A DNA stretch of 64,000 nucleotides from the NCBI RefSeq assembly GCF_900155685.1, contig NZ_LT732548.1, positions 195,898 to 259,897 on the forward strand, given 5' to 3'. Made by a program: the position numbers and the translations under genes. Origin of the DNA: Paenibacillus bouchesdurhonensis (lineage in GTDB: Bacteria; Bacillota; Bacilli; Paenibacillales; Paenibacillaceae). Under the pieces are notes generated by a model. That model did no database searches. It was not told the origin of the DNA and saw only the letters and a list, made by a program, of their open reading frames with translations. Every line of letters begins with the position of its first letter. Position 1 is the stretch's first letter. Of the stretch, positions 1,697 to 40,271 are shown one piece after another.

Positions 1697-3184
1697 ATGG
1701 CTAACTTAGGATACGGCGGTATTAACTACGGAACCGCAGACAAGGCAGGGAAGCAAGGTATTATTCAGAATCAGCAGAATGTTGCTAACAGCCCAGCGTA
1801 CAAACAAAGCGAAATTGACCGTACCTTGGCGGTGATTGAAAGTAGGAAGGCGCAAGGGCTGGATACATCGGCTCAGCAGAAATACTTGAATGTAAACCTG
1901 GGGTATCAAGCCCCTATGGTGCAAGCTGCTTCGAATGTCACCAGCTCACCACAGGCCACCTATACGCCGCCTTCGAGCCCAACACAGGATACGCTCAATA
2001 GGATGAATGATTTTATTAATAGGCAAGCTGAGTTTCAGTTTACGGCACCTGACCCCTTTACCTATGACCAAAACAGCGATCCGGCTTACCAGTCGCAGCT
2101 GGCCGAGGCAAAACGGAATGTCGAGAGTCAACAGAGAGACACAAACGCGATGCTTCGTGCCAGCGGACAGGGTATGTCGTCATGGAGTGAATCGGTGGCA
2201 AATCAGATCGGTACGAACGCCATGGAGAGTATCGCGAATAACTTGGTACCGGCACTAATGCAGCAGGCTTACCAACGATACAATGACGATGCTAATCGAA
2301 GCCTACAAGTCCAGCAAATGAATTACGGAGTAGGTCAAGACGCTTTAGGCAATCTGACGAACCTTTACGGCTTGCAGGATAACGAGTATTTCCAGAAGCC
2401 GCTGGCAGAGGCGCAGATAACAGGGAACTACCTCCCAACTGAAGCCAGACAGGCTATAGATCAGATTCTGAATCTTAAGCAGCAATGGGGTGCATCAAGC
2501 AACGCGCAAGATCGGGCAGAGTTTGCTAGGCAGGCAGAGACGTTACGTAATCAGCTAGACCGCATGGGTATTGATTCAAGCCTATACGGTGCTAACGTGA
2601 GCTATGCAGATGCTGCAAGGGCTAACCCGGGTGTTAGGACATTAGCCGGACAGCAGATCGACATGCAGCGACAAGGCCAGCAGTTCGATCAGCAGTTCGC
2701 ACAGGATCAATTTGCATATCAGAAAATCCGCGATCAGATCAGGGACGAGCAGTGGAAAATGCAGTTTGATCAGGACGTTAATCAGTTCGGCTTGCAGCAT
2801 GCTCTTAGCAGGCAGGTACAACTGGGCGGCTTAAGCATTGACCAGGCGCGGCTTGCTCTTGCAGCGGATGACAACGCCCGTCAATGGGCGGCACTGGATT
2901 GGGATATGATGAATCCGACCACGTCTTCGAGAGGAGGCTTAACAGCTAATCAGGTGCTGCAAAGCATGCAAAGCCTATACACCGAGCCGGTTTACCAAGA
3001 TAACGAAGGTATTCAAGAGAAAGTAGGTAATCGAATCACTCAAGACCCTACTAAAAGAGAGCAAATGTTTCTGAACGTGGTTGACGCGGGGTTGTCGGAT
3101 GCGGAGACGCAGCAGATACTTTCTTCACTCGGCATGACCAAAACTGAGGTTCAGAACTACACGAAGAAATACTCGGGAAACTGA
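1697..3184 (+). CDS. Gln-rich phage virion protein, zero-frame product of a probable frameshift gene
   Basis: The start is set at the ATG at 1697, 7 nt after a full AGGAGGTG site; an upstream ATG (1676) in the same frame lacks one. The product has 495 residues, strongly enriched in Gln, Ala and Asn, with long stretches predicted to be alpha-helical, no signal peptide and no membrane segment. Size, composition and position before a giant phage protein and the lysis genes suggest an internal virion or DNA-ejection protein, but no family is recognised with certainty. Its last codons (TCG GGA AAC TGA) form a slippery heptamer abutting the stop, so a fraction of product probably continues into the lysozyme-like domain. 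Confidence 0.7.
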   Translation: MANLGYGGINYGTADKAGKQGIIQNQQNVANSPAYKQSEIDRTLAVIESRKAQGLDTSAQQKYLNVNLGYQAPMVQAASNVTSSPQATYTPPSSPTQDTLNRMNDFINRQAEFQFTAPDPFTYDQNSDPAYQSQLAEAKRNVESQQRDTNAMLRASGQGMSSWSESVANQIGTNAMESIANNLVPALMQQAYQRYNDDANRSLQVQQMNYGVGQDALGNLTNLYGLQDNEYFQKPLAEAQITGNYLPTEARQAIDQILNLKQQWGASSNAQDRAEFARQAETLRNQLDRMGIDSSLYGANVSYADAARANPGVRTLAGQQIDMQRQGQQFDQQFAQDQFAYQKIRDQIRDEQWKMQFDQDVNQFGLQHALSRQVQLGGLSIDQARLALAADDNARQWAALDWDMMNPTTSSRGGLTANQVLQSMQSLYTEPVYQDNEGIQEKVGNRITQDPTKREQMFLNVVDAGLSDAETQQILSSLGMTKTEVQNYTKKYSGN

Positions 3185-3206
3185 CTAGCCCCGGGAAGAC
3201 CGGGGC
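3175..3206 (+). promoter_or_regulatory. candidate -1 programmed ribosomal frameshift signal
   Basis: In the zero frame the gene ends G GGA AAC TGA, so GGGAAAC at 3175-3181 is an X-XXY-YYZ slippery heptamer immediately before the stop. After a 6-nt spacer (3182-3187) comes a perfect hairpin: GCCCCGG (3188-3194), loop GAAGA, CCGGGGC (3200-3206). No U-tract follows, which argues against a terminator. A -1 slip continues with CTG ACT AGC and stays open to 3564. Heptamer, spacer and stem all fall in the range known for bacterial and phage -1 sites. Efficiency cannot be judged from sequence. Confidence 0.75.
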
Positions 3207-3564
3207 ATATAAAAATTACTACAAAGCGGCCAAAGATGCTAAAGCTAATCCGGCAGCCTTTAAGGTAGCGAGTACGGCAGTCGGTAAGGCTATCAAGGAT
3301 CTTGATTTGCCAGCAGAATGGATCACGCCGACCCTGGAGCTCGTAGCTCGGGAATCTTCCTTTAACCACAAAGCGAAGAACCCCAAGTCTACGGCTGCAG
3401 GGCTTTTCCAGTTCCTAGACGCCACGCGTAAAAACTATGGCGGGAATAAGGTCAACTGGGACGATCCCTATCAACAGGCGGTTGCCGGCTTAAAGTATAT
3501 CGAGGATCGATACGGTACGCCGGAGAAAGCATTGGCGTTTTGGGATAAAAACAAATGGTATTAA
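3181..3564 (+). CDS. lysozyme-like (SLT transglycosylase-type) domain, read by -1 frameshift from the preceding gene
   Basis: The -1 frame opens at 3148, inside the end of the preceding gene, and runs to TAA at 3564. Read through the slip at 3181 it adds 127 residues to give a fusion of about 622 residues. The second half contains ELVARESSFNHKA followed by AAGLFQFLDATRKNYG, the Glu-Ser and GLxQF pattern of soluble-lytic-transglycosylase/lysozyme-like folds, with the Glu as likely catalytic acid. A TTG at 3307 with a weak AAGGA is the only independent start and would remove about 40 plausible residues. Known precedent: phage ejection proteins such as T7 gp16 carry a transglycosylase domain for local peptidoglycan opening. 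Confidence 0.7.
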   Translation: MTSPGKTGAYKNYYKAAKDAKANPAAFKVASTAVGKAIKDLDLPAEWITPTLELVARESSFNHKAKNPKSTAAGLFQFLDATRKNYGGNKVNWDDPYQQAVAGLKYIEDRYGTPEKALAFWDKNKWY

Positions 3565-3576
3565 AGGGGTGAGGGG

Positions 3577-6500
3577 ATGTCCAGTTTCGACGACGTTAGA
3601 GATAGAATTAAGCGAGGGCAAGGAGCTAAGGAGCGGGTCTTACAACGCTTATCCATGCCTGAAGCATCTACTTCAATTGAGAGGGAGACTAGCACTTTCG
3701 ATGCCATTCGCAATCGCCCGATCGATACAAAACCGACAAGCGGTACGCCGATGGCTGAGCTTCAGTCGAAGTACGGAGCTTTTACGCCAATGAATCTAGT
3801 TAATGCAGCTATGTATGATGCTGCGATGAAAAACCAACAGGCTGCTAAGGCTCAGTCGGGAGCGAAGCCTTTAACTGAGTACGAAAAGAACAAGGAGTAT
3901 TACGACACTCTAAGCCCTTATAACCCAGCTAAATACTTTGCTAGTGCGATGAACTGGATAACTCGGGGCAATCCCGTGGGGAACTTTGCTTCTCGGATTG
4001 GCCACCAGGCGGACTCTGTCATGTCTGGTGGAAATCCCGCTACGATCCAGCCGCAAACTGGAAGCAGAGCGGCGGACATTACGGCTGATATCGCTGGCTC
4101 AGTGGCAAGTGTGTTTACCCCGACAGGTGCTCCGGTTAACATGGGGCCAATCGCGGGTACCTATGCGGCTACGGATAAGGTGTTGTTGTCCCCATTAGGA
4201 ATGAAGGCCGAACAAGCTGCGGCAAACCAACTTAGTAAGCTGATCAAGCCTCAGACAGCCCAAGCGCTGACAAGGGAAGGTTTGCGAGAAGGGGTGGCCG
4301 GGGCAATGCAAGGCGCGGCCTTTGGCGCCATGACGGGCAAGGATGACGCAGGGATACTCGCAGAGGCGGCGCTTGGCGGTGGAATTGGCGGGGCGCTAGG
4401 TATGGGCTTTAGAGCAGCAGGAATGGGTCTATCCAAACTGTTCAAGAAGAACGGAATACCTGACAGCGAAATTGCCGAGATCCTTGCTCTTCCGGAAGGA
4501 AGGCGGGATTCTCGTTTGGCGGCCGCTGCTGAACGGTCTACGCTTCCGGCAGGCACAGAGCCGGTAATTAATCCTTACACCTTTGATCTTCCGGAGGCTA
4601 CCCCTGCGACCAGGGCGGCAGCGGCGAACGCTAGCGAAGGCAGGCTTGGGTTAGGTGAGATCGATAACGCAATTAATGATCTGAATATGAAGTATGAGCA
4701 GCGCGTAATCGATGAGTATAAGTATCTGAAGGAGTCCCGCGATAGTCGTCGAGGAGTGCAGCAAGGTAGCCTGCAGAGGGACGTAACGGGGGATGTTGTC
4801 GGTCGAGCAGGTCGAATCTCGGAAAACCCGCTTTGGTATCAGGAATTTTATAGGTCGAATGGAAGGGTTCCTTCAAATAAAGATTTGTACCAACTAGCGC
4901 GAGAGCGAGTGGACAATGGCTTTATGGATGAGGTCGGTGCCGTGCCATCATGGAAAGCGGAAAATGGATTCGATGAGCAGCTTGCGGGGCTTGTAAGTGC
5001 TCGTGAGACATTACAAAACAGCTTGCGGGAAATTGACCCAGCTCTCCACGTCACCGATCAGCCAATTATTTCAAAGGAATTAAGGGACACACGGATTGAG
5101 CCTAACAGTGAGAGAAGGCCGACAACTGCGCCTTATCAGCCTGAACAACCGGGGACGGCGAAGATGGATCCACGTCGTCAGGAAATAAACGACAGGTTAG
5201 CGCGTGGGGAGAGTCTAACTCCTGAGGACATTGACTATATTCTTGCGAGTGAACCAAGGCCGAATCCCGTCAAAATTGAACCGCAAGTTGAATCTCCGAA
5301 ATTTCCGGAGGTTGATCCTAATGCAGAGCCCATATTAAACCCAAGCCAGTTTGAGGAACATTCAGGGGTAGGAATCTCGCCTTTTTCTAAGACGAACCCA
5401 TATGACTCGCTCCGGACGGATACCCGTTCGCAGCTGGTTAGTCGGCAGAAACGAGAGTTTAAGGGCTTGACTGCAAACGCGGACAAACTCTATACGGCGC
5501 TAATTGATGACCTTCATCCGCTTAACCAACAGGATAAAATACTTGAAAACGTGATGGGGGAAAAGCTTCCCTCTAACCAGCGTATACATGACACTGGTCT
5601 TGCTTCACGCGGCGCCGATGTGGTGGCTAAACGGATCATTACAGAGGGTCTTGTAGATGCTAAGGGGCAAGTGGTGGGTAAATCGCTGAAGAGTATTCTT
5701 GCTCCGCTAAAACCTTTGATGAAACGGAACAAACATATCTATGTAGATTTTGAGGACTACTTGCTAAACAAGCACGCCATCACTCGTTTTGAGCGAGGCG
5801 AGAAGGTATTCAGGGATGAACTTAAATGGACGCCGGATTACGGGGCGCAGAAGGTTTCGGAGTATGAACGGATGTTCCCGGAGTTCAAGGAAATGTCCGA
5901 AGGGTTGTATGAGTTTCAAGGCCAAGTGGCTCAGAAATGGCTTGTTGATACCGGGATGATCCCACAGGATATGCTGGATGCTTGGATTGAGAAAAACCCT
6001 TTCTATGTACCGAATAAACGCTATTTTAGCGAGTTGGAGAAGACGGGAAAGGGGTTCGGAGGAAAGAAGCGCGGATATGGGAATCAATCCAATCCTGTTA
6101 AAGCTTATCAAAAGGGTGGGTCTCAGCGACTGATCATAAGCCCGATCGAGGCCATGATCGAGAACGTGGATGCTTTCGTGAAATCGGCGAAGCGGAATAA
6201 GGTCATGCAGCAGTACGTAAAAAACATTGAGCGTGCTCCGGATGAATTTGAACCATGGGCAGAGATTGTTAAGCAGCCGGAGAGGGCGGAGGACATTGCG
6301 AAAATCGTTCTGGATGAAGGTGGTCTTGAAGAATTGCTGTTTCGCTTCTCTGCTGATTTTGACGCGGCGATGCAACGGACGCAGCTGGACAAAGATAACA
6401 TTGTCCGCGCGCTCGTGGATGGCAACCCTGTTCATGTTCAGATTAAGGACAAACAACTGCTGAGCGCGCTCACAGCTCTAGGGCCTGAGCAAACAGGTAA

Positions 6501-7998
6501 AATACTTCAAGGCATAGGTAAGTTGACCAACACCATGAAGCTTTTGACGACGGGAAGTAACCCGGTTTTCTCCTTGACGCGTAACTTGTTTCGAGACATC
6601 CCGCAGGCTTATATAGCCAGCAAAACGAGAGATAACCCGTTTATATTCATGGCCGAGTTGGCCAGCGCTGCAATCGACATCGGTATGAAGCGGGGGGCTT
6701 ATAAGGACTTCTTAAATATTGGCGGAGGTCACGCTTCGGCCATTGCCGCAGATCGAAATCTCTTACAGCAGAGTAAAAATGCAGTACTCCCTGCCTCCGG
6801 AGGAACCAGGCTGCACCGGGGGCTGCGTGATGGGTATGAGAACTTGCTAAATGCTGTTGAAGCAGCTCCTCGATTGTCAGAATTTAAACGAGTACGAGCT
6901 CTAGGCGGAGATCTTCAGGCAGCTCTTATGGCAGCCCAGGATTTAACCGTAAACTTCAAGCGACGGGGCGCTCTGTCTGGTGAGGCAGACAAGATATTCC
7001 CTTATTTCAATGCGGCGATACAGGGTATCGATAAAACAGTCCGAACTTACCGGGATGATCCCGCTAAAGCTCTAGTAAAATCGATTTTGGCCATCACGAT
7101 TCCTACGCTAGCTTTATACGCAATTAACCGTGATGACCCCAACTATCAAAAGCTGAGTAACCGAACGAAGGACGCATTTATGCTAATCCCCCGGGGGGAC
7201 GGCAAGTTTATCAAGATTTCCAAGCCGCAAGAGCAAGGTACGATATTCAGCGATATTCCGGAGCGGCTGTTACGGATGTTCGCCGAGCAGGATCCGGCAG
7301 CCTTCCGTGATTTCGCGGATCGGATTCGGACTACTTTAATCCCGCCTGGGGTGTCTGGATTAACTAGCGATAAAGGCCCTTTGGCTGGCGTATTCGGTGA
7401 TACAATTCTCGGCCCCGGGGTTGATGTATTGGCAAATGAGTCCTGGTCAGGCGCCCCGATAGTCCCTGGCCATCTGCAAAAACTCTCTCCAGGTCTTCAA
7501 GCGGATGCCAATACAACCTGGCCAGCTCGTAAGATTGGGGAAATGGTTCACGGCACGCCCCTAGAATCAAGCTTTACTAGCCCTAAAAATCTAGATTATT
7601 TGGCGAAACAGTATACGGGGTGGATCGGTCAGTTCGGACAGCCTCTACTTTCGTCCGGAGGGGATGCCGGATATGCCTTGTCTCAGTTGATGACGGCCGA
7701 CCCCGTATTCAGTAATGACTTGTCGACTGAGTTTTACCACTATAAAGAAAAGGTCGACCAAGCGTATAACGACCGAGAACTTAAGCAACTGCCTGAATGG
7801 TACAATGATCCGCTTCGGAAACGTCTGAATAAGATTAGCCAGAACATGTCCAGCGTCCGCAAGCAAATGAGGGACGTGCAAAACGATCAATCGTTAAGTA
7901 ACAAGGATAAACGGGAACGGCTGCGAGCGCTCCAGGAGCGTATAAACGAAATGGCCGAAGCAGGCAACTCGTTAGCTCGTGAGATTGTCCCATATTAA
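3577..7998 (+). CDS. large LPD38-type phage protein, probable ejected/internal virion protein
   Basis: The 1473-residue product starts at ATG 3577 after AAAGGGG/GAGGGG, only 12 nt after the lysozyme-like domain. A Gly/Ala-rich, possibly membrane-active segment lies near residues 200-290. Residues ~330-650 look extended and proline-rich. The region ~960-1250 (SNPVFSLTRNLFRDIPQAY, NFKRRGALSG, IFPYFNAAIQG) matches what I know as LPD38, a large-polyvalent-protein-associated domain. The C-terminus is charged coiled coil. Large polyvalent proteins are known to enter the host with phage or plasmid DNA. With the transglycosylase-like partner upstream, this is probably the main ejection protein. No metallopeptidase, ADP-ribosyltransferase or nuclease motif was noticed. 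Confidence 0.65.
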   Translation: MSSFDDVRDRIKRGQGAKERVLQRLSMPEASTSIERETSTFDAIRNRPIDTKPTSGTPMAELQSKYGAFTPMNLVNAAMYDAAMKNQQAAKAQSGAKPLTEYEKNKEYYDTLSPYNPAKYFASAMNWITRGNPVGNFASRIGHQADSVMSGGNPATIQPQTGSRAADITADIAGSVASVFTPTGAPVNMGPIAGTYAATDKVLLSPLGMKAEQAAANQLSKLIKPQTAQALTREGLREGVAGAMQGAAFGAMTGKDDAGILAEAALGGGIGGALGMGFRAAGMGLSKLFKKNGIPDSEIAEILALPEGRRDSRLAAAAERSTLPAGTEPVINPYTFDLPEATPATRAAAANASEGRLGLGEIDNAINDLNMKYEQRVIDEYKYLKESRDSRRGVQQGSLQRDVTGDVVGRAGRISENPLWYQEFYRSNGRVPSNKDLYQLARERVDNGFMDEVGAVPSWKAENGFDEQLAGLVSARETLQNSLREIDPALHVTDQPIISKELRDTRIEPNSERRPTTAPYQPEQPGTAKMDPRRQEINDRLARGESLTPEDIDYILASEPRPNPVKIEPQVESPKFPEVDPNAEPILNPSQFEEHSGVGISPFSKTNPYDSLRTDTRSQLVSRQKREFKGLTANADKLYTALIDDLHPLNQQDKILENVMGEKLPSNQRIHDTGLASRGADVVAKRIITEGLVDAKGQVVGKSLKSILAPLKPLMKRNKHIYVDFEDYLLNKHAITRFERGEKVFRDELKWTPDYGAQKVSEYERMFPEFKEMSEGLYEFQGQVAQKWLVDTGMIPQDMLDAWIEKNPFYVPNKRYFSELEKTGKGFGGKKRGYGNQSNPVKAYQKGGSQRLIISPIEAMIENVDAFVKSAKRNKVMQQYVKNIERAPDEFEPWAEIVKQPERAEDIAKIVLDEGGLEELLFRFSADFDAAMQRTQLDKDNIVRALVDGNPVHVQIKDKQLLSALTALGPEQTGKILQGIGKLTNTMKLLTTGSNPVFSLTRNLFRDIPQAYIASKTRDNPFIFMAELASAAIDIGMKRGAYKDFLNIGGGHASAIAADRNLLQQSKNAVLPASGGTRLHRGLRDGYENLLNAVEAAPRLSEFKRVRALGGDLQAALMAAQDLTVNFKRRGALSGEADKIFPYFNAAIQGIDKTVRTYRDDPAKALVKSILAITIPTLALYAINRDDPNYQKLSNRTKDAFMLIPRGDGKFIKISKPQEQGTIFSDIPERLLRMFAEQDPAAFRDFADRIRTTLIPPGVSGLTSDKGPLAGVFGDTILGPGVDVLANESWSGAPIVPGHLQKLSPGLQADANTTWPARKIGEMVHGTPLESSFTSPKNLDYLAKQYTGWIGQFGQPLLSSGGDAGYALSQLMTADPVFSNDLSTEFYHYKEKVDQAYNDRELKQLPEWYNDPLRKRLNKISQNMSSVRKQMRDVQNDQSLSNKDKRERLRALQERINEMAEAGNSLAREIVPY

Positions 7999-8005
7999 TG
8001 GTTCT

Positions 8006-8025
8006 GCCCTCGGGATCCCGGGGGC
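8006..8025 (+). terminator. hairpin between virion and lysis genes
   Basis: GCCCT, the palindrome CGGGATCCCG, then GGGGC make a near-perfect inverted repeat with one T-G wobble, followed by a short AT-rich run (TATTTATATT). It could attenuate late transcription just before the holin. The U-tract is weak, so termination strength is uncertain. Confidence 0.4.
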
Positions 8026-8050
8026 TATTTATATTGAAAGGGTGATTGTG

Positions 8051-8512
8051 TTGGTGAATCAAATCAAGGTGTTTGGTAGTACTGTACTGGCTGCTGCAGC
8101 TGGTGCTTCGGGTAAAGAGGCTGCTACTGGTGGAGTCTTTGCTGCTGTCGGTTTAATCGCTACATTGCTAGGCGGCTGGGATAAGCCGCTGCAGCTCCTC
8201 GTCGTACTTATGGCAGCTGATTATATTACGGGCATTTTGGGGGCAATCAAGACCAAAACGCTTAATAGCGAAGTAATGTTTTGGGGTGGTATCCGTAAGA
8301 TTACGGTGCTTTTTGTTGTGGGACTCGCCGTGCTAATTGACGGTTGGGTTGGAGGAGATGCATCTGTATTTCGTATCTTGGCCGTTTACTTTTATGCTGG
8401 TCGAGAGGGTCTTTCCGTAGTGGAAAATCTAGGCATCCTGGGCGTGTACCTGCCCCCGAAGGTTAAAGACTTCTTGGAGCAGCTGAACGAAAAGGGAGGG
8501 GCGACTAAATGA
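8051..8512 (+). CDS. phage holin, toxin-secretion/phage-lysis family (Holin_4 type)
   Basis: The frame is open from 7979, but the ribosome binding site GAAAGGG (8036-8042) points to the GTG/TTG/GTG cluster at 8048-8056; TTG 8051 is used here. The ~153-residue product has three to four hydrophobic segments, the motif MAADYITGILGA, and the conserved tail pattern YAGREGLSVVENLGILGVYLP typical of this holin family. It would form lesions in the cytoplasmic membrane that release or trigger the endolysin. The last four bases (ATGA) overlap the start of the amidase, a usual coupled holin-lysin pair. Confidence 0.85.
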   Translation: MVNQIKVFGSTVLAAAAGASGKEAATGGVFAAVGLIATLLGGWDKPLQLLVVLMAADYITGILGAIKTKTLNSEVMFWGGIRKITVLFVVGLAVLIDGWVGGDASVFRILAVYFYAGREGLSVVENLGILGVYLPPKVKDFLEQLNEKGGATK

Positions 8513-9216
8513 AGAATGTATGGATTGACGCAGGTCACGGCGGTAAGGATCCAGGGGCTGTTGCAAATGGATTGAAGGAGAAGGACATCGCTCTTACGGT
8601 GGCCGTGGGCGTTAAGGAGCGTCTGGAAGTTGAATATGAAGGTGTCTGGGTTCTATTGTCCCGAAGAACGGATGTCTTTTTAGAGCTTAAGGAACGCACA
8701 GACTTAGCAAACAAAGCGAGAGCCGACCTCATGGTTAGCATCCACTGTAACGCAGGTGGCGGTGCTGGCGGCTTCGAGACGTTCCGATATACGAACGCTT
8801 CAAGCAAGAGCACGGCATTTCAAAACGTGTTGCACGCTGAGATTATGGCCGCGCTGAAGCCTCATGGCGTTATCGATCGGGGCAAGAAGTCTAAGAACCT
8901 TCATATGGTACGAGAGAGCAAAATGCCGGCAGTGCTAACCGAAAACCTATTTATCGATGTGGCAGCTGATGCGGCCAAGCTCAAACGTGTCGATGTGATT
9001 GAGGCGATTATCCAGGGGCATGTGTCGGGAATTGCTAAATACCTGGGATTAAAACGAAGGGAGGGGGCAACCATGGCGGACAAGAAGGCGCCTGAGTGGA
9101 AAGAGAAGGGCAGAGAGTGGCTGATCAAGAACGCAGGGATTAGCGAAGATTGGAAGGCGACCGATCCGGTGGATGTCGGGACACTAGGAACGATCTTGAG
9201 CAGGCTGTTTAAATAG
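8509..9216 (+). CDS. N-acetylmuramoyl-L-alanine amidase (Amidase_3), phage endolysin
   Basis: Cleaves the bond between N-acetylmuramic acid and L-alanine in peptidoglycan. The 235-residue product carries the zinc site: His10 in DAGHGG, Glu24 in GLKEKD, His79 in SIHCNA, and a catalytic Glu near residue 144 in LTENLF. The amidase domain ends near residue 180. A charged linker and a ~40-residue tail (EWKEKGREWLIKNAGI) follow, perhaps a small wall-targeting or assembly motif. There is no signal peptide, as expected for a holin-dependent lysin. Translation is coupled to the holin by the ATGA overlap, and this is the last phage gene before a gene-poor junction. Confidence 0.92.
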   Translation: MKNVWIDAGHGGKDPGAVANGLKEKDIALTVAVGVKERLEVEYEGVWVLLSRRTDVFLELKERTDLANKARADLMVSIHCNAGGGAGGFETFRYTNASSKSTAFQNVLHAEIMAALKPHGVIDRGKKSKNLHMVRESKMPAVLTENLFIDVAADAAKLKRVDVIEAIIQGHVSGIAKYLGLKRREGATMADKKAPEWKEKGREWLIKNAGISEDWKATDPVDVGTLGTILSRLFK

Positions 9217-10489: not shown

Positions 10490-13400
10490 ATGAAAATCAA
10501 CCGAAAAGGTATGGTGAAAACACTCAATGGTGTTGTGAAAGTGCTCAAATTTATTTTTCCTGAGTATCAGCTTGTTGAGTTGGTTCGGGAAAAAGGATTT
10601 ATTGCACCAAAAGAAAACGAACCAGCTCCAAAGAGGCAAGAGCAGCAGCCGGTGCAACAATATAATACAGGATCGCGAGCCAGAAGTGCAGATCCGAGCA
10701 ACTCCGCGCGGACTTTTATGGGACAGAGCACTGTTTCGTCGACTTTCCGTCCTGTTCAATCTCAAGCTTATACGTCGCAGGGGGTGGGCCAAAGTGATGC
10801 GCAGAGCGCTTTTTCACCCAATCAATTGGATCAACTATTCCGAGAAGTGGAGAAGAACCTTAATAGTCAAGTAATCGGACAGCCGTTCTTCATAAAAGAT
10901 TTGGTTGCGGGATATAAACAGGGATATATGAATGGACGTCAGATTAATAAGCCAAGAAATGTGATTTTGCTGGCTGGAGCTCCCGGAACGGGCAAGAAAA
11001 CAGCCTTGGAATGCCTAGTTCGAGAGATGCATGCATATCGGCTAACCTCTAGGCCCCATTTTTCAGAAATTGATTTGCAGCGATATGAGGCCGATGAAAT
11101 ATCCGGTAATTTTATTATTGATATGGTGGAGGCTTTCCAATACTCTGAGGGAACGGTGTTATTTAAGGGAATAAAAGGGGCTGAGCAGGCTATTATTGGC
11201 TTGGTCGCTAAGCTTGCCGCGGAAGGCAGCTTCCGAACCAAAGAAGGGTTGCGCATAATCGCCGACGATTTTTTCATCATTTTCTATATCGATGAACCTG
11301 CAGAGAGAGGAAGTGAATTTGGCCAGGTTCCGTCCGGGTTGGCAAATCATCTCCCGATCTCTATCTTGCAAAGCATTCTTGCTGCGGCTATCTCTTCACC
11401 GTTAGAGTGGGAGACGATGCGACAAATTGCAGAGGCCTTACTTGGGAAAGCAGTAGACGATCTGTCAAGGGATATGCAGTTAAGTATCGTTGTTCATCCT
11501 TCCACGTATGAGGCGTTAGCCGATATCGCCGCAACAAACAAAACATTTGGCGAGGCAGTGCAGCACTGGATCGATAAGGAGCTTACTGTCGTATTGTCCG
11601 GCCTACGGGCCCGTAATGAGATTCGTAGCAATGAGCGTGTGCGTATTCGTTTTAAGAACGATTCTTTTCTTGTGGAGTCGAACTCGCTTGAGATTCCGAT
11701 CAAAGCACTATCTTTCGTTGGTCAGGAATCAATTGACGATGTCCTGGAAGAGTTAAATGCGTTAACAGGCCTCGAACCCGTGAAAAAGTTTGTCCATGAG
11801 CTCATGGAGATGGTTCAGGTGAACAAGCTGAGAGCTAGGGCAGGCGAAGGCTCTGTGCCGATGTCGCTTCATATGGTGTTTACCGGGAATCCCGGAACCG
11901 GCAAGACGACGGTCGCCCGCTTAATCGGCCGTATTCTGAAGGCGCTCGGATTGCTGCCGCAAGGTCAATTGATCGAAGTAGCGAGGCAGGATCTTGTAGG
12001 ACAATATGTGGGCTCTACCGCTCCGAAGACGATGGCAAAAGTCAATGAGGCCTTGGGAGGCGTATTGTTCATCGACGAGGCCTATACACACGCTCGTCAT
12101 GATAACGATACGTTCGGCACTGAAGCAATCGACACGATCGTCAAGGCGATGGAGGATCATCGAGATGATTTGGTTGTTGTGCTGGCAGGGTATACCCAGG
12201 AGATGGAGACCTTTTTGCGATCGAATCCAGGTTTGCGTTCAAGATTTCCATTCATCGTGGAGTTCCCGGACTACAAGGCGGAAGATATGCTGGAAATTAT
12301 GATTCAAATAGTAGACAAGAATGGTTTCCGCATAGATTCGGATGCCTATGAGGGTTTGATCGAGCTGTTCGATCAACGGCAAATCCCTGGCCGCAATGAC
12401 AGCGGTAACGGCCGACTTGTTCGCAATCTGTTCGAGGAGGCTGTCCGCAAGCAAGCTGCTCGGCTTAGAGGGCTGATGTCAGAGGCAACTGCAGATACAG
12501 ACTTGCAATTATTGACAGGGGCAGACTTCGGAATCGGTGAGAAGGAAGCATTTAACATCGAGAATCAGCTTGCTGGAATGGTCGGGTTGGAGAAGGTGAA
12601 ACTATTCGTCCGAACTTTGGAAAAACAGCTTATTGTTGATCGAAGGCGGAAGGAAGCCGGGATTCATGTCGATACCGGGCAGACTCTCAATATGATTTTT
12701 TCGGGCAACCCCGGTACGGGCAAGACGACGATGGCGCGCCTGTTGGCAGAGATGCTCCGATCCATGGGTTATTTGAAAAAAGGACATCTGGTTGAAGTGG
12801 GGCGATCCGATCTGGTAGCGGAGTACGCCGGTCAGACAGCCAAAAAGACCAAGCTGGTTGTCGAATCTGCTCTTGGCGGCGTGCTCTTCATCGATGAGGC
12901 CTATGCGCTTGCGCAGGATGGTGTGCAGGGCGGGGGCTTCGGGAAGGAAGCCATCGATTCGCTGGTTCGTCTTATCGAGCTCCATAAAGACAATTTGGTT
13001 GTCATTTTGGCGGGATACACAGAAGATATGCAGCGGTTTGTTCAGGTCAATCCGGGGCTGTCCTCGCGCTTCCCGCTACAGATTGAATTCCCTGACTACA
13101 CGGCCGAGGAAATGCAGCAAATCGCCTTGATCATGGCGAAGGCGCGAGGGTTTACCTTGGCTTCGAATGTGCCAGGTTTGCTCGAATCCTATTTTAATGA
13201 GAAGCAAATTCCGGGTAGAAAGGACGTAGGCAACGGTCGGCTTGTCCGCAATACGTTGGAGGAGGCGATACGCAAGCAAGCGGAGCGATTGGCCGATCAT
13301 CCTGATATTGCGGTGGATCAGTTAAATGAGCTGAATGTGGAGGATTTTGGGCTGTCGGCACATGTAGACCTTGTGGCCCAGCGGGCGAATGCGCTTGGAG

Positions 13401-14188
13401 CGCTCGATGCTGTTGTTGGTCTGTCCTCTGTTAAGGAATTTGTGAGAAGCCTATCGGCACAAATTGAGGTGGCTAAGCGCCGTCAGGAGATGGGGCTGCC
13501 CAAGGCTTCCGCTCAAGCTCTCCATATGGTGTTTAAAGGAAACCCGGGTACCGGAAAAACGACGATTGCCCGTATTTTGGCCCAACGATTTAAAGAACTG
13601 GGCGTGATCAAGACCGACACGCTGGTAGAAACTGATCGATCCGGCCTAGTTGCCGGTTATGTAGGGCAAACTGCGCTCAAGACGAAAGAGGTTATCGAAC
13701 GCGCTCTTGGTGGGATCTTGTTTGTGGATGAGGCTTATGCCTTGGCGGAAGGGGATCAATTCGGGCAGGAAGCGATCGATACGCTTGTCAAAGCGATGGA
13801 TGATTACCGAGACAGGCTCATCGTTATATTGGCCGGCTACGACGAAGATATGGAGCGCTTCTTGAACCGCAATGCGGGGCTCCGCTCGAGATTTCCCAAT
13901 ATCATTACATTCCCCGATTATACAGCCGAGGAAATGCTGCAAATCGCGCATTTGCAAGTGAAATCGCAAGGATATGTGATTGGCCGGGAGGCTGAAGGCA
14001 CGCTGCTCTCCATTTTAGAGACCTATGAAGGAGATATGACCGCAGGTAATGGACGGCTCGTGCGAAATTTGGTCGAGAAAGCGATTCGAGCCCATGCCTT
14101 ACGTATGAGCAAGGAAGCCAATGCTACAGCCGAGGAATTATCTACTTTGACACCTGGAGATTTCCAAGAACAGATGGGGGTGATGTGA
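10490..14188 (+). CDS. four-module AAA+ ATPase with three tandem CbbX/SpoVK-type domains
   Basis: A 1232-residue soluble protein. After an N-terminal helical part and a ~60-residue Gln/Ser-rich linker comes a divergent ClpB-like AAA module (Walker A GAPGTGKKT, residues ~163-171). Three CbbX/SpoVK-type modules follow, with Walker A GNPGTGKTT near residues 465, 739 and 1017 and Walker B FIDEAY or FVDEAY about 58 residues later. Each also has the GYTxxM or GYDEDM and NPGL or NAGL/RSRF sensor-like patterns and a GNGRLVRN sensor-2 block. Family members (CbbX, SpoVK, the AAA part of EccA) are hexameric remodelling ATPases; three such modules in one chain is unusual. The next gene overlaps its stop (TGATG), so it probably works with the two membrane proteins downstream. 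The client is unknown. ATG 10511 is an alternative start. Confidence 0.8.
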   Translation: MKINRKGMVKTLNGVVKVLKFIFPEYQLVELVREKGFIAPKENEPAPKRQEQQPVQQYNTGSRARSADPSNSARTFMGQSTVSSTFRPVQSQAYTSQGVGQSDAQSAFSPNQLDQLFREVEKNLNSQVIGQPFFIKDLVAGYKQGYMNGRQINKPRNVILLAGAPGTGKKTALECLVREMHAYRLTSRPHFSEIDLQRYEADEISGNFIIDMVEAFQYSEGTVLFKGIKGAEQAIIGLVAKLAAEGSFRTKEGLRIIADDFFIIFYIDEPAERGSEFGQVPSGLANHLPISILQSILAAAISSPLEWETMRQIAEALLGKAVDDLSRDMQLSIVVHPSTYEALADIAATNKTFGEAVQHWIDKELTVVLSGLRARNEIRSNERVRIRFKNDSFLVESNSLEIPIKALSFVGQESIDDVLEELNALTGLEPVKKFVHELMEMVQVNKLRARAGEGSVPMSLHMVFTGNPGTGKTTVARLIGRILKALGLLPQGQLIEVARQDLVGQYVGSTAPKTMAKVNEALGGVLFIDEAYTHARHDNDTFGTEAIDTIVKAMEDHRDDLVVVLAGYTQEMETFLRSNPGLRSRFPFIVEFPDYKAEDMLEIMIQIVDKNGFRIDSDAYEGLIELFDQRQIPGRNDSGNGRLVRNLFEEAVRKQAARLRGLMSEATADTDLQLLTGADFGIGEKEAFNIENQLAGMVGLEKVKLFVRTLEKQLIVDRRRKEAGIHVDTGQTLNMIFSGNPGTGKTTMARLLAEMLRSMGYLKKGHLVEVGRSDLVAEYAGQTAKKTKLVVESALGGVLFIDEAYALAQDGVQGGGFGKEAIDSLVRLIELHKDNLVVILAGYTEDMQRFVQVNPGLSSRFPLQIEFPDYTAEEMQQIALIMAKARGFTLASNVPGLLESYFNEKQIPGRKDVGNGRLVRNTLEEAIRKQAERLADHPDIAVDQLNELNVEDFGLSAHVDLVAQRANALGALDAVVGLSSVKEFVRSLSAQIEVAKRRQEMGLPKASAQALHMVFKGNPGTGKTTIARILAQRFKELGVIKTDTLVETDRSGLVAGYVGQTALKTKEVIERALGGILFVDEAYALAEGDQFGQEAIDTLVKAMDDYRDRLIVILAGYDEDMERFLNRNAGLRSRFPNIITFPDYTAEEMLQIAHLQVKSQGYVIGREAEGTLLSILETYEGDMTAGNGRLVRNLVEKAIRAHALRMSKEANATAEELSTLTPGDFQEQMGVM

Positions 14189-39986: not shown

Positions 39987-40271
39987 ATGGCAAGGAGAAG
40001 AAGGAGATATGTCGTGCCAGGAGCAGAAGAAGGCATGCAGGCTTTTAAAGCAGACGTGATGAGGCGCGAAGGATATACTGTGGATCCCAATCGGCCAGAC
40101 GATGTCAAATATGAAGTAGCCGAGGAGCTAGGGGTTCCTTTACAGCCTGGGGGGAATGGCGATTTGAAGACGGAGTCGGTCGGTCAGGTAGGCGGTAAAA
40201 TTGGCGGCTCCATGGTCAGGGAAATGGTTCGGCTTGCGGAGCAGCAGCTGGCGAAGAAGAATCTAAACTGA
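39987..40271 (+). CDS. alpha/beta-type small acid-soluble spore protein
   Basis: 94 residues from ATG 39987, 9 nt after AGGGGTG. An Arg-rich N-terminus (MARRRRRYVVPGAEEG) is followed by the GPR protease-like site KYEVAEELGV, then VGQVGGKIGGSMVREMVRLAEQQL, which is the SASP signature. The protein coats DNA in dormant spores and protects it from UV and heat, and is degraded by GPR on germination. It should be made in the forespore under sigma-G; no clear sigma-G box was found. It is longer at the N-terminus than the usual 60-75 residues. Confidence 0.9.
   Translation: MARRRRRYVVPGAEEGMQAFKADVMRREGYTVDPNRPDDVKYEVAEELGVPLQPGGNGDLKTESVGQVGGKIGGSMVREMVRLAEQQLAKKNLN

Follow-up and report, generated by a model that had tools for sequence, protein, structure and literature searches.

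A short signal at the end of a 495-codon prophage gene, termed here the carrier gene, is interpreted as a programmed −1 ribosomal frameshift site that would yield, beside the 495-residue protein, a 622-residue form ending in a peptidoglycan hydrolase. With the inferred steps included, this is the best explanation of the locus and is held with high confidence. That the frameshift itself is genuine is close to certain, with slippage in the host and its efficiency remaining inferences in the absence of expression or proteomic data. Five things are supported by the sequences themselves: the presence of the signal in a family of prophages of Paenibacillus-type bacteria, how well it is conserved, how the two frames relate, that the −1 frame is under selection, and that start codons are scarce. 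The site also acts as an exchange boundary, where three unrelated hydrolase families with differing stems are seen to swap just behind the stop codon.

The probable frameshift site

The window, i.e., the whole 64,000-nucleotide stretch of DNA analysed, corresponds to G000:C7:195898-259897 in a 5.8-Mb genome. The features of concern, in window positions, are the following.

1697..3184, + strand: carrier gene, zero frame, 495 amino acids and TGA (open reading frame, SD, family searches); predicted all-helical
3148..3564, + strand: −1 open frame encoding an SLT lytic transglycosylase (PF01464, E 2.3e-9; group median dN/dS 0.116)
3175..3181, + strand: slippery heptamer G GGA AAC (from sequence; zero frame TCG GGA AAC TGA)
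3182..3187, + strand: 6-nt spacer TGACTA, opening with the zero-frame stop TGA 3182-3184
3188..3206, + strand: stem-loop of 7 bp with a loop of 5 (sequence, RNA fold, alternative pairs in relatives)
3577..7998, + strand: next gene, encoding a 1,473-amino-acid LPD38 protein (PF18857, E 5.9e-39)
7979..8512, + strand: holin (PF05105)
8509..9216, + strand: N-acetylmuramoyl-L-alanine amidase, a separate lysis enzyme (PF01520)

The arms of the stem are GCCCCGG (3188-3194) and CCGGGGC (3200-3206), and the loop is GAAGA (3195-3199). Positions 3175-3230 fold at −17.3 kcal/mol (z −3.31), a value equalled or bettered by 1 of 200 dinucleotide shuffles. The first-pass annotation had described a G GGA AAC heptamer touching the TGA, a 6-nt spacer and a perfect 7-bp stem, and the window sequence bears out all three at the positions given for them. 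Its further claims of a −1 frame open from inside the upstream gene to 3564, of an SLT/lysozyme-like domain in that frame, and of a form of about 622 residues with the junction YSGN-LTSPGK hold as well. The frame runs from 3148 to TAA 3562-3564, its translation from 3157 matches Pfam SLT above the curated cut-off, and the junction is reproduced by translation from ATG 1697. A search for known RNA families at the site gave a single chance-level match, on the other strand, and stop-codon readthrough was rejected because the hydrolase sits outside the zero frame.

The ATG at 1697 has a GGAGG-type SD upstream. Predicted products are 495 amino acids and 55.1 kDa without a shift, and 622 amino acids and 69.2 kDa after slippage, the −1 frame contributing 127 codons past 3181. 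In the proposed mechanism, most ribosomes would halt at TGA 3182 and produce the 495-residue carrier. A fraction, positioned with tRNAs over GGA and AAC and the stem 6 nt ahead, would slip back one base to GGG AAA. These slipped ribosomes would read the 127 further codons, giving a 622-residue carrier with a C-terminal lytic transglycosylase. An A-site AAC slips less readily than AAG in E. coli.

Gene context and proposed role

Upstream of the carrier gene are terminase-like genes and genes for a P22-type portal (PF16510), a major head protein (phrog_371; PF10124) and two SU10-type adaptors (PF24175). This is the arrangement sought for podovirus ejection (internal virion) proteins, in which portal, head and adaptor genes form a late structural cluster that ends near lysis genes. 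The gene cluster is of podovirus type, no particle having been observed. Beyond the amidase gene, a 1,232-amino-acid open reading frame at window 10490-14188 (+) displays three GNPGTGKT motifs by eye.

The carrier itself has no convincing match in Pfam or PHROG (best E 0.05-0.08), and neither the window carrier nor its relative L038 matches any of 50,697 phage records. Its AlphaFold model is of low confidence (mean pLDDT 68, pTM 0.26), and a fold search with that model was uninformative, with no hit at E 0.001 or better.

It is inferred, from gene order and by analogy, that both carrier forms are packed into the particle as a podovirus ejection protein, that the enzyme would open the peptidoglycan at DNA entry, and that the slip rate would set its dose. 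A place in the virion with an ejection role is judged probable; it rests on gene order and on the hydrolase domains of the T7, PhiM1 and SU10 ejection proteins. The idea of dose is advanced because the slip site persists where in-frame fusion is evidently possible, and is an inference without a measured ratio.

A real frameshift whose products are not virion ejection proteins and serve another step, e.g., lysis, assembly or release, is unlikely, and is the alternative with the most to recommend it. There are no virion data, the fold of the carrier is unknown, and holin and amidase genes follow the LPD38 gene. Those same two genes, however, already provide for lysis as separate proteins. The carrier gene, moreover, comes after the genes of portal, head, adaptor and tail type and adjoins the giant LPD38 gene. 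As far as the available parts of the sources go, the hydrolase domains in T7, PhiM1 and SU10 belong to ejection proteins.

Frame relation and heptamer in relatives

Relatives of the carrier were collected by protein searches of viral contigs and of genomes (11 of 98 and 58 of 394 in two of the genome searches) and from regions fetched by place. The first set comprised 149 loci with an open reading frame of the family, which reduced to 93 distinct ends. A second set, seeded by the downstream LPD38 protein, comprised 52 loci, 49 of them with an open reading frame just upstream that belonged to the carrier family in 42 of the 49; it added 22 new ends, nine with a −1 hydrolase, for a total of 115. 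Near-duplicates, LPD38 loci without an upstream open reading frame (L184, L192, L205) and L170, with an upstream frame of 226 amino acids, were excluded before counting, and protein-search matches that were given no locus and not fetched are outside the count. Six positional counterparts not recognised as carrier family (L177, L201, L210-L213) are within the 115. The sequences are related, and the counts are not independent events.

Of the 115 distinct ends, counting carrier genes and positional counterparts together, 75 have a hydrolase that starts in the −1 frame and five have one fused in the same open reading frame (L009, L070, L074, L141, L179). No hydrolase was detected at the remaining 35, so the hydrolase is not essential to the carrier. 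None of the 115 ends has it only in the +1 or the zero downstream frame. All 75 BLAST matches lie within an unbroken −1 open reading frame, and the hydrolase is confined to that frame in 73; additional pieces occur in the +1 frame at L010 and in the zero frame at L049, a pattern as would be found in damaged copies. The −1 frame extends from 77 (L049) to 626 nt beyond the stop, with L050 cut by the end of its contig.

An X XXY YYZ heptamer abuts the stop codon at 63 of the 75 hydrolase-bearing ends and lies within 9 nt at 68, the five further heptamers being 3-9 nt before the stop. The abutting heptamers are GGGAAAC (39), GGGAAAG (15), AAAAAAC (4), GGGAAAA (2), CCCAAAC (2) and TTTAAAG (1). Seven ends have no canonical heptamer; these show G-runs (L150, L152, L159, L186), T-runs (L137, L160) or nothing recognisable (L207). 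At L175 the stop comes one codon later and the heptamer-to-stem distance is still 6 nt.

The background is low, with 91 heptamers at 40,165 in-frame positions of the same open reading frames. None of the 40 ends that lack a −1 hydrolase has an abutting heptamer, and one has a heptamer 9 nt away. Within loci L001-L162, an abutting heptamer is present at 55 of 90 distinct carrier-family ends vs 7 of 2,027 other ends of open reading frames of at least 100 amino acids. The codon before the heptamer tracks the heptamer whatever the residue, a result not corrected for relatedness. A codon-usage probability (log10 P −41) ignores relatedness and covers all 58 adjacent sites, and is not relied on. As judged from these comparisons, a chance origin of the site is untenable.

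The stem-loop in relatives

Folding of the first 50 nt past the stop averages −17.7 kcal/mol across the 66 first-set loci that have a hydrolase, compared with −9.0 and −8.5 in the flanks (a single window on each side, upstream and downstream; p about 1e-11 by paired Wilcoxon test). The best stem beats all control windows of its own locus (31 per locus, 21 for L050) in 44 of the 66, where about 2 would be expected. The other 22 include several fair stems equalled by some control, and those of L012, L132, L143, L161 and L073 are poor.

The stem sequence varies among relatives and its complementarity is kept. Alternative Watson-Crick pairs occur at five of six counted positions in 52 loci that had been preselected for at least 6 bp there; because of this preselection, the fair tests of the stem are the folding energies and control windows in the 66 loci. 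Pairing was counted by script because the MAFFT alignment misplaced 3′ arms of differing loop length. Measured from the heptamer at the 68 ends that have a canonical one, the best stem reaches a score of 15 or more in 57 cases, and a start 6 nt past the heptamer is the commonest spacing (34 of 68). The linker peptide encoded by the stem may be a partial cause of its conservation. An SD-like stimulator upstream of the heptamer, found at bacterial frameshift sites such as dnaX, though not always, is not above background here (5 of 75 ends vs a control mean of 1.6 and maximum of 7).

Coding selection and start codons

Median dN/dS in the −1 open reading frames is 0.116 in the SLT subgroup (10 of 66 pairs usable), 0.081 for the glucosaminidase (11 of 66) and 0.109 for the VgrG3-like group (2 of 15). 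Most pairs were unusable, largely from synonymous saturation. From the usable pairs, the −1 frames are inferred to be under purifying selection.

Two separate genes, with the hydrolase started on its own at TTG 3307 or by reinitiation after the carrier stop and the heptamer incidental, would be a very improbable arrangement. It draws on the window being one of the 6 ends in 75 whose hydrolase frame has, in its first 150 nt, a start codon preceded by an SD-like motif, owing to TTG 3307 with AGGA 5-12 nt upstream. Carriers have such a start in 66 of 74 cases and the following genes in 54 of 74. In all seven relatives compared, the codon aligned to TTG 3307 is something other than ATG, GTG or TTG; 20 of the 75 hydrolase frames have none of these codons in their first 150 nt, and 57 have no ATG there. 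Nor would separate genes preserve the −1 frame in 75 of 75 cases, or the heptamer and stem. The first-pass statement that the hydrolase lacks a good start is thus upheld in part: starts preceded by an SD are rare in relatives, but TTG 3307 has an AGGA upstream. Its reading of the site as a programmed −1 frameshift is strengthened by the conservation of heptamer, spacing and stem in homologues. The pattern it had named as a refutation, a hydrolase with its own start and ribosome binding site and no heptamer, was not found as a pattern, the hydrolase being only in another downstream frame at none of the 115 ends. Because an SD-preceded start is usually absent, such enzymes can escape annotation.

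Transcriptional slippage in place of ribosomal frameshifting is more doubtful still. L035 does have a run of nine A upstream of its site, but in the window no long stretch of A or T lies close to the site, and the parts conserved are a codon-phased heptamer and a spaced stem. A frame-broken gene, or a sequencing error that splits one fused gene, might be suggested by the in-frame fusions in five relatives, but can practically be dismissed given 75 distinct ends with the same arrangement at the same point and a −1 frame apparently under purifying selection.

Exchange of hydrolase cassettes

In the first set, the hydrolases behind the programmed frameshift site fall into three clusters unrelated by BLAST, with 39, 19 and 6 members, identified as SLT, glucosaminidase (PF01832) and VgrG3-like (PF21277). 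On a tree of the carrier, the five states require 38 changes; shuffled labels require a mean of 51.3, with 0 of 200 shuffles as low. The labels are thus more clustered on the carrier tree than shuffled ones. In-frame fusions represent five separate events for five loci. The tree holds 100 rows, with rows under 100 bits left out, and was made by a quick method with SH-aLRT support only; recombination inside the carrier could inflate the change counts. Subject to this, three hydrolase families are inferred to have replaced one another repeatedly behind the site.

A second related prophage is present in the same genome at G000:C7:3584832-3586319 (L002, L016, L035), with a carrier 95% identical to that of the window. 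DNA similarity between the two stops at window 3192, 8 bases past the stop codon, and resumes at 3721 in the next gene. The heptamer is identical, and the stem and the hydrolase differ from those of the window.

The in-frame fusion L070 aligns over nearly the whole predicted window fusion with 52% identity. It retains GGGAAAC and the stem, yet is open through the stop region. This locus is putatively a constitutive fusion; a sequencing error is not excluded.

It is hypothesized, with only slight preference over doubt, that the site represents a standing exchange socket. The carrier would keep the slip site, prophages would trade cassettes consisting of stem-loop and peptidoglycan hydrolase, and any incoming enzyme would be displayed on a fixed minority of subunits. 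The hypothesis is framed for the prophages of Paenibacillaceae and of one or more further families in the order. If it is true, the identity of the enzyme, which is fast-changing, perhaps with the host wall, is uncoupled from its dose, which is set by the ribosome. A testable sequence rule follows, namely that the slip site is a recombination boundary.

Other occurrences of the element

The pattern GGGAAACTGANNAGCCCC was found in 45 viral contigs, and in 32 of these it marks the present carrier with a −1 hydrolase. In 12 further contigs the pattern belongs to other genes, several of them near-identical, whose −1 extension is 212-317 nt long; the one occurrence left looks like chance. A second element pattern was found in five contigs, two with carriers and three others.

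Among the 12 is L247, where an open reading frame of 112 amino acids at 8338-8990 (minus strand) has the element and precedes a frame of 1,088 amino acids. Its extension resembles Phage_tail_T only weakly, scoring under the curated cut-off; the site is probably that of a tail assembly chaperone frameshift. Frames of 132-133 amino acids that end in GGGAAAC TGA NNAGCCCC are present in L217, L218, L221, L227, L229, L234, L239, L243 and L249, with a −1 extension of 230-248 nt of unknown family. Those tested (L218, L249) have no convincing PHROG or Pfam match. L219 738-1903 and L242 6218-7383 (minus strand) display a 318-amino-acid frame with the same element, a real-looking stem and an unknown short −1 extension.

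Gene 18 of the Bacillus phages Page and Pascal ends in TCG GGT TTT CTG GGG TAG (L031 about 6490-6512, L032 about 3450-3470), and its −1 frame leads on into a product that is annotated as 'lytic tail fiber protein' and has NlpC/P60 and SLT domains. A parallel −1 site, G GGT TTT, is possible in these isolated phages of Bacillus megaterium. The announcement of Page mentions no frameshift (PMC3990757). The case is only a lead because the 13 records fall into two identity bands and the gene 18 carrier is not recognisably related.

Comparison with known systems

In lambda G/GT, ribosomes slip by −1 at GGG AAA N shortly before the first frame ends. The site described here involves the same kind of slip, likewise close to the end of its first frame. 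The carrier, however, is a protein of 495 amino acids and not a small chaperone, and its extension is an enzyme; its next gene encodes an LPD38 protein and not a tape measure, and the cluster is of podovirus type.

C-terminal extensions of capsid or tail proteins by frameshift have been described for T3, T7 (10A/10B), Lactobacillus A2 and Listeria PSA/A118 (PMC5009743). In these phages also, to judge from the part of the review available, one gene gives a short and a longer form by frameshift, and the extra domain is a promiscuous one, shared between phages. Their extensions, Ig-like or of some other non-enzymatic kind, sit on capsid or tail proteins, whereas the extension described here is a peptidoglycan hydrolase and the family of its carrier is unknown. 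The word 'lysozyme' is absent from the examined part of that review.

The podophage Privateer has a major-capsid frameshift at GGGAAAG, with two capsid bands on gels and the minor form detected by mass spectrometry (PMC7881722). The slip is of the same class, in a podophage structural gene, and GGGAAAG is the second commonest heptamer among carriers; the Privateer product, as far as the available portion of the paper describes it, is a capsid extension without a hydrolase.

Hydrolase domains have been reported in the ejection proteins of T7 (gp16), PhiM1 and SU10 (gp20) (PMC8954989, PMC11440229, PMC9509320). The likeness, from the sections at hand, is that a podovirus cluster places a hydrolase close to a giant protein, probably to open the cell wall when the DNA enters. 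Those sections do not mention 'frameshift' for these ejection proteins, and no sequence match between them and the carrier was found, nor a fold match with the low-confidence model. One of the papers, in its available part, describes ejection proteins for phages that infect Gram-negative bacteria or mycobacteria and states that phi29-like phages lack them (PMC8954989).

A frameshift that adds a cell-wall hydrolase to a phage structural protein was not found among the matches listed in a literature search, which is weak evidence, with titles and the starts of abstracts searched and subscription literature mostly outside. Nor does a hydrolase appear as a frameshift-added part in the portions available of six sources (PMC5009743, PMC10885494, PMC8954989, PMC9509320, PMC7881722, PMC11440229). 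Frameshift extensions of capsid, tail and chaperone proteins are thus known, and the peptidoglycan hydrolase as the added part would, on that search, be new. If the proposal is correct, programmed frameshifting is used to meter a cell-wall enzyme on a phage structural protein. This suggests that phages of thick-walled bacteria possess a group of wall-hydrolase domains metered in this way, and it bears on how such podoviruses pass the wall.
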